From Bacteroidales bacterium (lineage in GTDB: Bacteria > Bacteroidota > Bacteroidia > Bacteroidales > Marinilabiliaceae), in contig JAKSLG010000015.1 in NCBI GenBank assembly GCA_024401295.1, forward strand, positions 1-61,702: a stretch of DNA of 61,702 nt. Direction: 5' to 3'. The stretch's first letter is position 1. The number at the start of each line of letters is the position of its first letter. Of this stretch, positions 17,234-61,430 are shown one piece after another. A program made the position numbers and the translations under genes. The notes beneath the pieces are model-generated. The model did not search any database, was not told where the DNA came from, and was given only the letters and a program-made list of their open reading frames with translations.

Positions 17234-17671
17234 TTATCTTTTCCCTGCGAAAAAACGAACAACAAGGTCACTACATTCTTGGGCAAGTATGCCTTGCGTC
17301 ACCTTTGTCTTAGGATGGAGCATCGATGGCTCGAATCGGGCATAGCCACGCTTTGGATCGGCTGTGCCATAGACAATGCGACCAATCTGCGACCAGGCCA
17401 AGGCACCGGCACACATGCAGCAAGGCTCGACAGTTACGTACAGCGTGCAATCATTGAGGTATTTAGCGGCAAGAGCACCGGCAGCAGAGGTGATTGCTAT
17501 GATTTCGGCATGGGCAGTCACGTCGGTCAGGCGCTCGGTTTGATTGTGTCCACGACCAATGATGCGGCCATTGCACACGACGACGGCACCAATCGGGACC
17601 TCATCGGCATCAAGTGCTTTGCGAGCCTCCTTGAGAGCTTCGCGCATGAACATCTCGTCGGCAGAATCCAT
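17234..17671 (-). CDS. tadA: tRNA-specific adenosine deaminase
   Basis: A 145-residue zinc deaminase of the CDA fold. The metal and catalytic residues are HAE (54-56) and PCCMC (83-87). It most likely converts the wobble adenosine of tRNA-Arg(ACG) to inosine; a guanine deaminase of the same fold is the alternative, but the length and the C-terminal FEPSMLHPKTKV..GIL stretch fit TadA better. Its ATG overlaps the stop of the upstream lipoprotein gene by one base (TGATG), so translation is coupled. Confidence 0.85.
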   Translation of the reverse strand: MDSADEMFMREALKEARKALDADEVPIGAVVVCNGRIIGRGHNQTERLTDVTAHAEIIAITSAAGALAAKYLNDCTLYVTVEPCCMCAGALAWSQIGRIVYGTADPKRGYARFEPSMLHPKTKVTQGILAQECSDLVVRFFAGKR

Positions 17672-19542
17672 CAGCGTTTCTTTTTGTCCTTTATACGGAA
17701 TTTGCGCGCAAATTTGTCCTGAGAGAAATCTGCCACATTGAAGTCTACTTTTATATCCCAGTTGGCTCGGACTGCGACTTTTTCCATATAGTAACTGACA
17801 TTTTCGGGCTCTATTTTGTCGTCATAGTTTCCAATGTCGAGCATCCCGTTCTGATTGGTATCTTCCACGATACGAATCATATAATTGCCTGGCTTGAGAT
17901 AGCGGAATGCGACACGTCCGTTGGCTGGGACACGATTCTGGCGCGAAACCTTCTCGCCTTTCATGTCGACGAGCTGCAAGAGCGCATTTTCCGGCGTGTT
18001 TGAAACGATGATGTACAACGTTCCATATTTGTCGAGCGTAGTGATCTTGATTTTTGATTCCTGCTTGTTGCATTGCAACCCGAACACATCTCGAACGGAT
18101 GCCGAATCTATTGTCAAGAGATATTCTTCGCCCGGTTGCCAATCGGCCTTGATTGTCTGACGGCGCAGATTGACCGTGTCGGCAGAATGCGTGAATGCCA
18201 TTGGCTCAAAAATGGTATCGACTTTATGTTTCAACTGAAAACCATTCCAATCGATATCGCCGAAAGGTGTTTCGCTTGTGATCTGGAGCACCGAGAAGAC
18301 GCCGATGGATGTTGAAACCTTGAGTTTCAGCGTAGGAACATCAGCTTTCTTCTGATTGTCTGCCCTATTTCTCCGGTTCTTTTTTTCTTCCTTCTTATCG
18401 ACAGGCTTGTCCATGAACCACATGTCGAGGGTGTCAATCTTGTCCACGAAATTCTTGTCCTGGTCGAGGACCGGATATTTGAGTGCAACGACTACAGAAT
18501 CGCCTTTGTAAATGAGCGAATCGGTAATCCAATATGTGACGGTATCGTTGTGGAGACTGTATTCGGCAACGCCATGCGATACGCTTGGATCCTGCTCCGG
18601 GAACGAGATTTCGGGCTTTGTCGTCATGCGATTGTTGAAGACAAAATTGAGGACATTACGCTTCGAGCGCTTGTCTGAAACGATATACTGATCGTAGCTT
18701 TCTTCCGTGTATGCAAAAAGAATGAGCGAATCGGGAGTGTAAACCAGCGTATCGCGAACGACATGTTCATAGACCCATTCTGCGGTATCGGCAGATAACG
18801 AGAGCGAATCAATCTTGACACTATCGTTGATCTGGCGTATTTCCCATCCAGGTGTAACTTCGCCTTCGTGCCAAGCAATCATTTCAGCCGGCTGATCATA
18901 GAGGAAATTACGATTCTGATCATCGAGCGCAAAGATGCGATATTTCTTATCGGCCGGAACATTCTTAATTGCGAATCGACCGGCATCATCAGTCTTTGCG
19001 ATACGCACCGGAGGAACGGTGTGAAAAGCTGAATCAGCAAGATTCTGCTGAAGCATGACGTATATTCCGCTGACAGGCGCGATCGTTCCAACAGCATACA
19101 CATTGCCCGAAATCATCATGGAGTCCTGACTCTCGCCTGTCGAAAATGTGAATGTGAAATTCTCATAGACATTGCCCTCGTTGAGGTCCATAAGACAATC
19201 GGCAAAATCGAGCGTATAAGTCGTTCCAGGGACCAGAAGAGTATCGCTGTCGAAACGAATGCGAAGAATATTTCCGTGGGCATCGAGCTTTGGCTGAACG
19301 GCCAATGGCGGCGAAATGATGAACTTCTTATCCTGATCTTTCAGCTGGATATTCTCATCGAAAGTAAGCGTTATGATGTTGCCAGAGAAACCCGTTGAAT
19401 TTGGCTCAGGCACCGAACGGACAAGGACAGGAGGCTTTTTATCACGCGGACCACCTGTTGGCGTTCCCGGATTGGCACAGCAGACCGCAACGAGGGCGAC
19501 AAATGCGATGCCGATGATACGAAATATATCTTTTATCTTCAT
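17671..19542 (-). CDS. SbsA-type Ig-like domain lipoprotein
   Basis: About 623 residues. A lipoprotein signal (MKIKDIFRIIGIAFVALVAVCCA) is followed by the segment PTGGPRDKKPPVLVRSVPEP and an Ig-like domain of the SbsA/Big_5 kind (NIITLTFDENIQL..., TYTLDFADCLMDLNEGN). Later parts include a carboxypeptidase-regulatory-like fold (DDAGRFAIKNVPADKKYRIFALDD), a lysine/arginine-rich linker near 395-410 and a C-terminal beta-sandwich ending in RFRIKDKKKR. Probably anchored in the outer membrane. This lipoprotein type is widespread in Bacteroidetes with unknown function. It begins 3 bases after the SAH-hydrolase-like gene, or 12 bases if the ATG at 19542 is used. Confidence 0.8.
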   Translation of the reverse strand: MKIKDIFRIIGIAFVALVAVCCANPGTPTGGPRDKKPPVLVRSVPEPNSTGFSGNIITLTFDENIQLKDQDKKFIISPPLAVQPKLDAHGNILRIRFDSDTLLVPGTTYTLDFADCLMDLNEGNVYENFTFTFSTGESQDSMMISGNVYAVGTIAPVSGIYVMLQQNLADSAFHTVPPVRIAKTDDAGRFAIKNVPADKKYRIFALDDQNRNFLYDQPAEMIAWHEGEVTPGWEIRQINDSVKIDSLSLSADTAEWVYEHVVRDTLVYTPDSLILFAYTEESYDQYIVSDKRSKRNVLNFVFNNRMTTKPEISFPEQDPSVSHGVAEYSLHNDTVTYWITDSLIYKGDSVVVALKYPVLDQDKNFVDKIDTLDMWFMDKPVDKKEEKKNRRNRADNQKKADVPTLKLKVSTSIGVFSVLQITSETPFGDIDWNGFQLKHKVDTIFEPMAFTHSADTVNLRRQTIKADWQPGEEYLLTIDSASVRDVFGLQCNKQESKIKITTLDKYGTLYIIVSNTPENALLQLVDMKGEKVSRQNRVPANGRVAFRYLKPGNYMIRIVEDTNQNGMLDIGNYDDKIEPENVSYYMEKVAVRANWDIKVDFNVADFSQDKFARKFRIKDKKKR

Positions 19543-19554
19543 CTGTTTCATAAA

Positions 19555-20217
19555 TCAATGTCCTTTGGACTCGGCCAGAGCCAGAATCTGAGAAACACAA
19601 GCAACGAGTGCATTTTCTGATTGAGACGGCATCTCGATAATCGTTGTCTCATTGCGCACGGCAGTCCAGAAACCACTCTTGTTGCGTGTCATGAAAAGCA
19701 TTTCATTAAGCTCGAAAATCTCATCATCGCCATTGTCTTCGTTCAAGACATCGGAATTCACCTCCGATTCAGCGCCTTGATTTATGGCCATGCGAGCCTT
19801 GCCATTGCCGTCGATGACAACGTCCGGCAGATCGTTTTCGCCAAAAGTCAAAGCCTGAAGCATTGCCCACCAGAGTTCACCAACGGACTGGCCTTTCCAC
19901 GCAAAAACGGATATCTTTGCTGCAGCCAAAGCTGCCGCAACAGCATTGTCGGTTGAATCGACAGCAGACGAACACCAACGGACTTTTGCCCCCAACGCAT
20001 CGAGCACTTCGACCAAAACAGCCGACGAAGCATCGACACCAAGCGAGCCGACGACCTTGACATTCGACAATGGCGACTGCCCTTCATATTTCTTCAGAAG
20101 ATCATTCAACTGAGGTAAATTCTGCATTGCCGCATCAATAGATTTGCGGCCTTCAGCAGCAAGCGACATATCGGCTATCTTGCGGTCGTACTGGTTATTG
20201 TCTACATATTCAATCAT
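19555..20217 (-). CDS. Truncated S-adenosylhomocysteine-hydrolase-like protein
   Basis: A 220-residue protein that lines up by eye with the first half of S-adenosylhomocysteine hydrolase: YDRKIADMSLAAEGRKSID (10-28), VVGSLGVDASSAVLVEVLDALGAKVRW (55-81, against the enzyme's GCLHMT..TAVLIETL..LGA), DSTDNAVAAALAAAKISVFAWKGQS (87-111), PDVVIDGNG (131-139, against DDGGD) and NETT (189-192, against EETTT). The catalytic His of HMT is replaced (GVD), DDGGD is reduced to IDGNG, and the frame ends before the Lys/Asp active-site segment and the whole NAD-binding domain. A normal enzyme has about 430-480 residues. It is an intact frame with its own promoter and two co-transcribed genes, so it looks maintained and not decaying. 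Loss of the hydrolase reaction is predicted; a binding or regulatory role is speculation. Confidence 0.7.
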   Translation of the reverse strand: MIEYVDNNQYDRKIADMSLAAEGRKSIDAAMQNLPQLNDLLKKYEGQSPLSNVKVVGSLGVDASSAVLVEVLDALGAKVRWCSSAVDSTDNAVAAALAAAKISVFAWKGQSVGELWWAMLQALTFGENDLPDVVIDGNGKARMAINQGAESEVNSDVLNEDNGDDEIFELNEMLFMTRNKSGFWTAVRNETTIIEMPSQSENALVACVSQILALAESKGH

Positions 20218-20240: not shown

Positions 20241-20248
20241 CAAAGGTA
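20241..20248 (-). promoter_or_regulatory. -7 box for the SAH-hydrolase-like operon
   Basis: TACCTTTG on the minus strand, 23 bases before the ATG at 20217. Confidence 0.5.
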
Positions 20249-60062: not shown

Positions 60063-61316
60063 TCATGCAAGAGCAAATGCAGATTTGATCTTGTCTATAT
60101 AGTCAAGCTTCTCCCATGTGAAGAATTCGAGCGTACGTTCGATTGTTTCACCGTTGACATTGAACTTCACTGTCGCAGTATATGGCTTGCGGCCAACATG
60201 ACCATAGGCTGCCGTCGGACCATAAATTGGATTTTTGAGTCCGAAACGCTTCACGATACGGCTTGGACGCATATCGAAGATCTTGCTCACCTTCTGTGCG
60301 ATCTGTCCGTCGGTGAATTTCACCTTAGATGTGCCATATGTATTGACATATAGACCGACAGGCTTGGCTACACCGATTGCATAGGCAACCTGCACGAGAA
60401 CTTCGTCGGCTACGCCTGCCGCAACGAGGTTCTTTGCAATATGACGCGCTGCATAGGCAGCAGAACGGTCAACTTTTGACGAGTCCTTACCAGAAAATGC
60501 TCCACCGCCATGTGCACCTTTACCGCCATAGGTATCGACGATAATCTTGCGGCCTGTCAAACCGGTATCGCCATGAGGGCCACCGATCACGAATTTGCCT
60601 GTAGGGTTTACAAAGAGCTTATATTCATTAGCAAAAAGCTTTGCCTGAGCCTCCGGCAAACGAGCAACAAGACGCTTGAGGAGAATAGACTTAACGTCCT
60701 CGCGGATCTTGGCAAGCATTGTATCATCGTCTGCAAACTCGTCGTGCTGTGTCGAAACAACGATTGTATCTATCTTGTTTGGAGTATTGTCATTGTTATA
60801 TTCGATTGTCACCTGGCTCTTGGCATCCGGACGAAGGTATGTCATTACCTTACCCTCCTTGCGAATAGCATCGAGTTCAATAAGAATCTGATGCGCAAGA
60901 TAGATTGGCAGAGGCATATAATCTTCCGTATCCTTGCAGGCATAACCGAACATCATACCCTGGTCGCCTGCGCCCTGATCGTCCTTCTTCGCACGCTCAA
61001 CGCCACGATTGATGTCGTCAGACTGTGCATGGAGAGCAGATACGACGCCACATGATTCCGCATCGTACTTATACTCAGCCTTGTTATAGCCGATTTTGTC
61101 GATTGTTTCGCGAGCCACATCGCTTACATTGACAAAACCCTTTGACTTGATTTCGCCAGCAACAACCGTGAGACCCGTTGTTACAAGTGTCTCACATGCG
61201 ACCTTAGACTCAGGGTCCTGAATGAGCAAATTATCAAGAACTGCGTCTGAAATCTGGTCAGCCACCTTATCTGGATGACCTGCTGAAACTGATTCTGAAG
61301 TGAAAAAATATCCCAT
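60063..61316 (-). CDS. metK: S-adenosylmethionine synthetase
   Basis: A 417-residue enzyme making SAM from methionine and ATP. Motifs: [20 protein letters not shown] (7-26), [32 protein letters not shown] and [19 protein letters not shown]. The length is above the E. coli enzyme (384), as in other Bacteroidetes, owing to loops in the middle. It is alone, with a leader of about 115 bases from the -7 box at 61431-61438; I did not recognise a SAM riboswitch there. Confidence 0.97.
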
Positions 61317-61430
61317 TTCTACTATTATGATTAATTGTTAAAAATGGAAAGGGACATGAGAGATGCATTTTAGCACTTTTTTATAGTGGTTGCAATGAGC
61401 AAATCCATCCACTCTTTCTCTTTCTGGGTG

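Follow-up and report, generated by a model that had tools for sequence, protein, structure and literature searches.

S-adenosylhomocysteine hydrolase (SAHH, also AhcY or SahH) joins a substrate-binding domain (PF05221) to an NAD-binding domain (PF00670). In the mouse enzyme, as described in PMC4647836, the substrate domain is made of residues 1-181 and 355-385; adenosine is contacted by Leu54, Thr57, Glu59, Asp131, Glu156, Thr157, Met358 and Phe362 and by the hinge residues Lys186, Asp190 and His353, and His55 and Asp131 are catalytic. The SAHH motif has been given as HxTxQ(E) (PMC7765604). SahH and the alternative enzyme pair Pfs and LuxS were found to be nearly exclusive of each other in 138 genomes (PMC524169); a retained remnant of the displaced enzyme, such as we describe here, is not mentioned in the part of that study available to us. 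In animals, AHCYL1 (IRBIT) and AHCYL2 are inactive SAHH relatives that have their catalytic residues replaced and act through partner binding (PMC12955632). Here we describe a half-length SAHH-like gene in the window, the whole stretch of 61,702 nucleotides that was analysed (contig JAKSLG010000015.1 of assembly GCA_024401295.1), from a Bacteroidales bacterium of the family Marinilabiliaceae. SAHH appears to have given way to the two-enzyme route of S-adenosylhomocysteine (SAH) recycling in a few gut bacteria, and two of these species appear to keep an inactive half of the old enzyme, its gene readable for longer than would be expected of a useless one. We consider it fairly probable that the SAHH substrate domain was left as a separate dead protein after the takeover by Pfs and LuxS, and that selection has kept it. 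Sequence comparison establishes the basis for this: the protein is homologous to SAHH, it lacks the NAD domain as well as the residues for catalysis and ligand contact, another species has a second intact copy, and the case coincides with the presence of LuxS. The gene is the following:

19555..20217, minus strand, stop codon included: coding sequence of a 220-residue SAHH substrate-domain pseudoenzyme, with its ATG at 20217 (open reading frame list, profile and structure matches).

The initial annotation, made from the letters alone, had called this product a half-length SAHH look-alike, and profile and structure comparison bore it out. PF05221 (AdoHcyase) matched with an E-value of 8.6e-41 and 140.4 bits against a cut-off of 25, residues 12-191 of the protein covering positions 2-180 of the 299 in the profile, and the closest PDB match was SAHH 6uk3_A (E 2.3e-36). 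In sequence and in predicted fold, the protein has the substrate-binding domain of SAHH; it falls far under the cut-off of the full-length NCBIfam ahcY model (100.7 bits against 497.6). Eleven residues precede the AdoHcyase match, and no other Pfam family matched at E <= 10. The SAHH segments named in the annotation are present, with a reservation for NETT: its letters are there, but its match to EETTTG is insecure, the alignments differing over the last ~30 residues.

The hinge segment with Lys186 and Asp190 and the PF00670 domain are absent from the half-gene frame, as had been noted, and in the assembly, which is 75% complete, we found no PF00670 match at E <= 0.001 and no further PF05221 match. 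It is consequently very improbable that the half-length protein serves a full-length SAHH as a subunit, be it regulatory or structural. Heteromers of animal AHCYL1 with AHCY have been proposed, on weak evidence (PMC12955632), but the window genome shows no full-length partner, and G068, a genome of the same genus that carries the second short copy, likewise has a single match to the short-copy profile and none to PF00670; the earlier suggestion of a partnership with full SAHH is unsupported. A split gene with its NAD domain encoded elsewhere was also ruled out by the absence of PF00670 matches from the window genome and G068. In G062, the third genome of this group, the sole PF00670 match lies below the family cut-off (E 4.9e-4), within a 310-residue frame.

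Two altered segments locate the lost active site:

20026..20049, minus strand: GSLGVDAS, residues 57-64, where SAHH has GSLHMTIQ; the catalytic His and the adenine-contacting Thr and Gln are lost.
19798..19815, minus strand: IDGNGK, residues 135-140, where SAHH has VDDGGD; the equivalent of catalytic Asp131 is Gly.

The catalytic His of the HMT motif had been read as replaced, and HMT does correspond to GVD; at the HMTIQ position the window copy has GVDAS and the G068 copy PINES, neither of them fitting HxTxQ(E). The reading of DDGGD as turned into IDGNG was right in that the motif has changed, but the ungapped alignment pairs DDGGD with DGNGK, which leaves the first Asp in place and makes the second, Asp131, the one replaced; in our own alignment to numbered structures this position is Gly in the window copy and His in the G068 copy. 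The equivalents of His55, Thr57, Glu/Gln59 and Asp131 are replaced in both short copies, and of the five alignable substrate-domain contacts Leu54 alone is kept, in each copy, while other constant positions are kept at 37/74 in the window copy and 34/74 in the G068 copy. Within three active-site loops, as delimited by us, the window copy retains 7/21 constant positions, against 31/58 elsewhere (p 0.13), and the G068 copy 4/21, against 31/58 (p 0.0096).

Prediction and alignment together show a putatively folded substrate domain devoid of its catalytic residues, in agreement with the pseudoenzyme first proposed. Judged by its replaced residues, the half-length protein would no longer bind SAH or adenosine as SAHH does. 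We therefore think it improbable that the protein serves as a sensor or buffer, signalling or restraining the level of the old ligand through continued binding: the fold is predicted to be intact, and in SAHH it is this domain that holds the nucleoside (PMC4647836), but the four replacements common to both copies, and the absence of the Lys186/Asp190 segment and of the NAD domain with His301, leave the binding of SAH or adenosine suggested by the annotation unsupported.

The G068 copy has 214 residues from the matching ATG, or 230 from an upstream ATG. Its own stop closes the frame 175 nt from the contig end, and no SAHH sequence was seen in those last 175 nt. The same gene is found in CAJONN010000034.1, from an uncultured Marinilabiliaceae bacterium (isolate Reindeer_2_mag_9), and the relatives G063 and G059 match contigs of metagenome-assembled genomes from horse faeces and yak rumen. 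The two short proteins share 38% identity, and in a tree of 17 proteins they group at 0.998, beside G063 at 0.735. At 40 columns both short copies depart from a residue common to at least 15 of the 16 full-length relatives; at 13 of these the two copies carry the identical replacement, against 2.9 on shuffling and a BLOSUM expectation of 3.2, which leads us to infer that inactivation happened once, ahead of the species split. An assembly or binning artefact, with a truncated or chimeric contig, is most improbable. The window genome is indeed fragmented, but the frame is ended by its own stop in mid-contig, the adjoining lipoprotein-like gene has its closest relatives in G062 and G068, and the separate reindeer assembly has its own copy.

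The window protein found matches in 68 of the 71 genomes of a family set, all but G062, G013 and G015, and in 63 of those 68 the frame has 467-521 residues. In the other five the frames have 226 residues in the window genome, 257 in G068 (stop to stop), 430 and 73 in G017, 138 in G032 and 51 in G056. Judged by coordinates, the pieces of the last three genomes are situated at contig ends or close to them, and one G017 piece was checked. In our searches the half-length feature was encountered in two species, which belong to a clade of three. As for the matchless G013 (100% complete) and G015 (94%), they may handle SAH in another way or carry a divergent SAHH.

The three members of this clade also stand apart in SAH recycling. 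The SAHH NAD domain exceeds its curated cut-off in 12 of the 15 genomes of the genus, all except the window genome, G062 and G068. Precisely those three have LuxS, and no other member of the 71 does. The look-up of a Pfs/LuxS route advised in the annotation was positive for the window genome. A nucleosidase gene directly precedes luxS in the window genome and G062, and the two genes lie on separate contigs in G068; the nucleosidases of all three exceed the curated cut-offs NF004079 and TIGR01704 (methylthioadenosine/SAH nucleosidase), and LuxS exceeds that of NF002604 in the two cases tested, the window genome and G068. PNP_UDP matches occur in 15/15 genomes of the genus, and restriction to the trio is claimed for LuxS and not for Pfs. 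With completeness of 75%, 84% and 81% for the three genomes, the odds of all three lacking ahcY through incompleteness alone are 0.25 × 0.16 × 0.19, or ~0.8%, assuming independence.

Whether the half-gene is kept or decaying was approached through the differences between the copies, which fall at 95, 69 and 123 of 183 first, second and third codon positions; this third-position excess was matched by 0 of 20000 permutations. Random drift of the frame, simulated to 37-44% identity (400 runs per distance, indels ignored), left on average 5.7-6.4 stops and a clean frame in ~0.3% of runs, and of 60 columns at least 90% hydrophobic in SAHH, 52 and 46 are still hydrophobic in the two copies. These three tests, weaker than a formal dN/dS, point to selection. 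In both species the catalytic residues are lost and the frame is open, the fold prediction applying to the window protein. Slow decay, in which the job was lost when Pfs and LuxS came and the frames are open by chance or through recent release, is in our judgement rather unlikely. It would account for the fast change (branches of 0.74 substitutions per site for the stem and 0.53 and 1.04 for the tips, against 0.002 for G063), for the lack of a visible copy in G062 and for the differing neighbourhoods, and a truly decayed ahcY does exist in the same order (G160). It sits poorly, however, with two open frames that share 13 of 40 replacements, which makes the inactivation seemingly older than the split, with the third-position excess and the stop simulation, and with a hydrophobic core kept and a fold predicted. 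The annotation's view that simple decay is unlikely is accordingly upheld, with maintenance the more likely.

Several observations weigh against a domain kept by selection after the swap. The copies changed ~3 times faster than the neighbouring lipoprotein and tadA genes (1.57 against 0.55 substitutions per site), as under relaxed constraint, and synonymous changes are saturated in both sets, with branch lengths at their bounds and no usable dN/dS. The loss of contacts compared with other constant positions is not significant (Fisher p 0.36 and 0.38, n = 5). No half-gene copy was found in G062 even at E 10, so that it is dispensable, lost or unassembled there, and gene neighbourhoods differ between the two copies, so that context does not name a partner. 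In the neighbour-gene tree (lipoprotein and tadA), G062 and the window genome form a group at 0.967, but support for separating the trio from the remaining members of the genus is only 0.379. Furthermore, at the completeness given above a full-length ahcY could be unassembled, and G013 and G015 have neither an SAHH match nor LuxS (2/71), so that SAHH can vanish without LuxS.

For a substrate domain retained after the takeover, we propose that SAH recycling in a small Bacteroidales clade passed to Pfs and LuxS, that the ancestral SAHH would have lost its enzyme function once, prior to the split of the two species, and that the remaining substrate domain would since have been retained by selection. 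Least surely, the dead domain may act as a folded binding module through contact with another protein, in the manner of AHCYL1, and not through SAH or adenosine. By analogy, AHCYL1 and AHCYL2 are the nearest precedent, being likewise SAHH relatives with replaced catalytic residues. They differ in keeping the AHCY domain, adding an N-terminal IRBIT domain and having active AHCY alongside, whereas the 220-residue protein has neither the IRBIT domain nor a whole AHCY domain, and no SAHH was detected in its genome. With AhcY/SahH itself it shares the sequence and fold of the substrate-binding domain and, in 3 of 4 relatives, a promoter element at a similar distance; it lacks the NAD and C-terminal dimerisation domains, and catalytic and ligand residues are replaced. 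It is improbable that the remnant now regulates or senses the Pfs-LuxS route, whether its target were Pfs or LuxS, a methyltransferase, or some new ligand (S-ribosylhomocysteine, for example); if this were true, a displaced enzyme would survive as controller of its successor.

Enzyme displacement is usually visible only as gene presence and absence, and here the swap can be placed among close relatives, two of which seem still to carry the displaced enzyme as a dead domain. This offers a testable case of a second, non-catalytic job of an ancient, highly conserved enzyme outliving its chemistry, as has been argued for animal AHCYL.

Across the order, PF05221 was found in 321 of 393 sampled genomes, the window genome included. 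Of these 321, 25 genomes besides the window genome, chosen by eye for a weak best match or multiple matches, were searched again (17 + 8), G017 of the family being added. Among these 25 no intact half was seen; they held full-length genes, contig-end pieces and the G160 gene with internal stops. Of the short relatives across Bacteroidales, which the annotation had proposed to look for, one is found in G068, and none was seen as an intact half in this re-searched set. Contig-end pieces were checked at 15 loci and otherwise assigned by coordinates, the G316 and G118 pieces being mutually complementary, and the genes of lone pieces cut in this way (e.g. G152, G286, G374, G384, G278) may continue beyond the contig. 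Frames of 414-423 residues in G078, G195 and G434 are taken as archaeal-type. The other 295 genomes have one PF05221 match each, at E 1e-138 or better, with frame lengths seen for part of them. G109 and G120 have two full-length SAHH genes apiece (frames of 475-492 residues), and in G160, a 1.2 Mb genome, the later pieces of the ahcY gene at G160:C5:249512-250786 contain several internal stops, and the gene is decaying.

Among plasmid records, 82 of 72,556 matched, all below 60% identity, and the eight matches listed are all annotated ahcY. Among the titles and abstract openings listed by full-text literature searches, none names a bacterial half-length SAHH, which is no proof of absence in print. 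SAHH genes are common on IMG/VR contigs, with 130 relatives, the best 80 of which (L064-L143) mostly have frames of 428-471 residues. A short SAHH of 225 residues on a 177,658-base viral contig (L114:2004-2681) resembles the half-length protein in missing the NAD domain, but its HMT motif is intact, and the N-terminal part that holds it is joined to a kept C-terminal tail; it occurs on one contig only and has no link to the half-gene. When it was used as query, none but itself among the best 80 of 221 loci matched past residue 189, and it looks like a singleton.

The immediate surroundings of the half-gene are as follows:

20241..20248, minus strand: TACCTTTG, a Bacteroidota-type -7 element starting 31 nt upstream of the half-gene ATG.
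17671..19551, minus strand: 626-residue lipoprotein-like protein with a Big_5 domain, its start codon 3 bases past the half-gene stop.
17234..17671, minus strand: tadA-like tRNA adenosine deaminase, the third gene in this run; its 136.3 bits fall slightly short of the NCBIfam cut-off (150).

The half-gene had been credited with its own promoter and with heading a tight operon, and both agree with this arrangement: TACCTTTG fits TAnnTTTG, which we take to be the Bacteroidota -7 consensus, and the half-gene ends at base 19555, with the next gene starting from 19551 and tadA following. The G068 copy has a TAnnTTTG element at -30, and full-length ahcY is preceded by one at -33 in G059, -47 in G063 and -30 in G058, with none in G055; the motif is over-represented across the window generally (62 against 39.7 expected). 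No half-gene match was found beside the relatives' lipoprotein gene at 14 loci with flanks of up to 1.5 kb. In G068 the half-gene is preceded by a 179-residue frame (no Pfam match in the part tested) and by genes that are fatty-acid-synthase-like by reading of their translations.

The end of the protein is of less certain origin:

19558..19653, minus strand: C-terminal tail, residues 189-220, with a predicted strand (192-195) and helix (201-217), from the old hinge segment or the segment that returns after the NAD domain.

The structure alignment joins model residues 9..219 to residues 8..419 of 5v96, only its end residues being given, and since it ends at SAHH residues past the NAD domain, the tail of the model may fill the place of the return segment. 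The NAD domain may have been cut out, or the end lost and then rebuilt. Scores of the tail against the profile are within shuffled noise, and hhalign slightly favours plain truncation (289-291) over excision of the NAD domain (279-285), with a score of 288 when the tail is left out.

Elsewhere in the window, a SAM-II riboswitch (RF01726) was found at 61360-61418 on the minus strand, with 49.2 bits against a gathering threshold of 44, 43 bases upstream of the frame 61316..60063, whose translation reads as metK.
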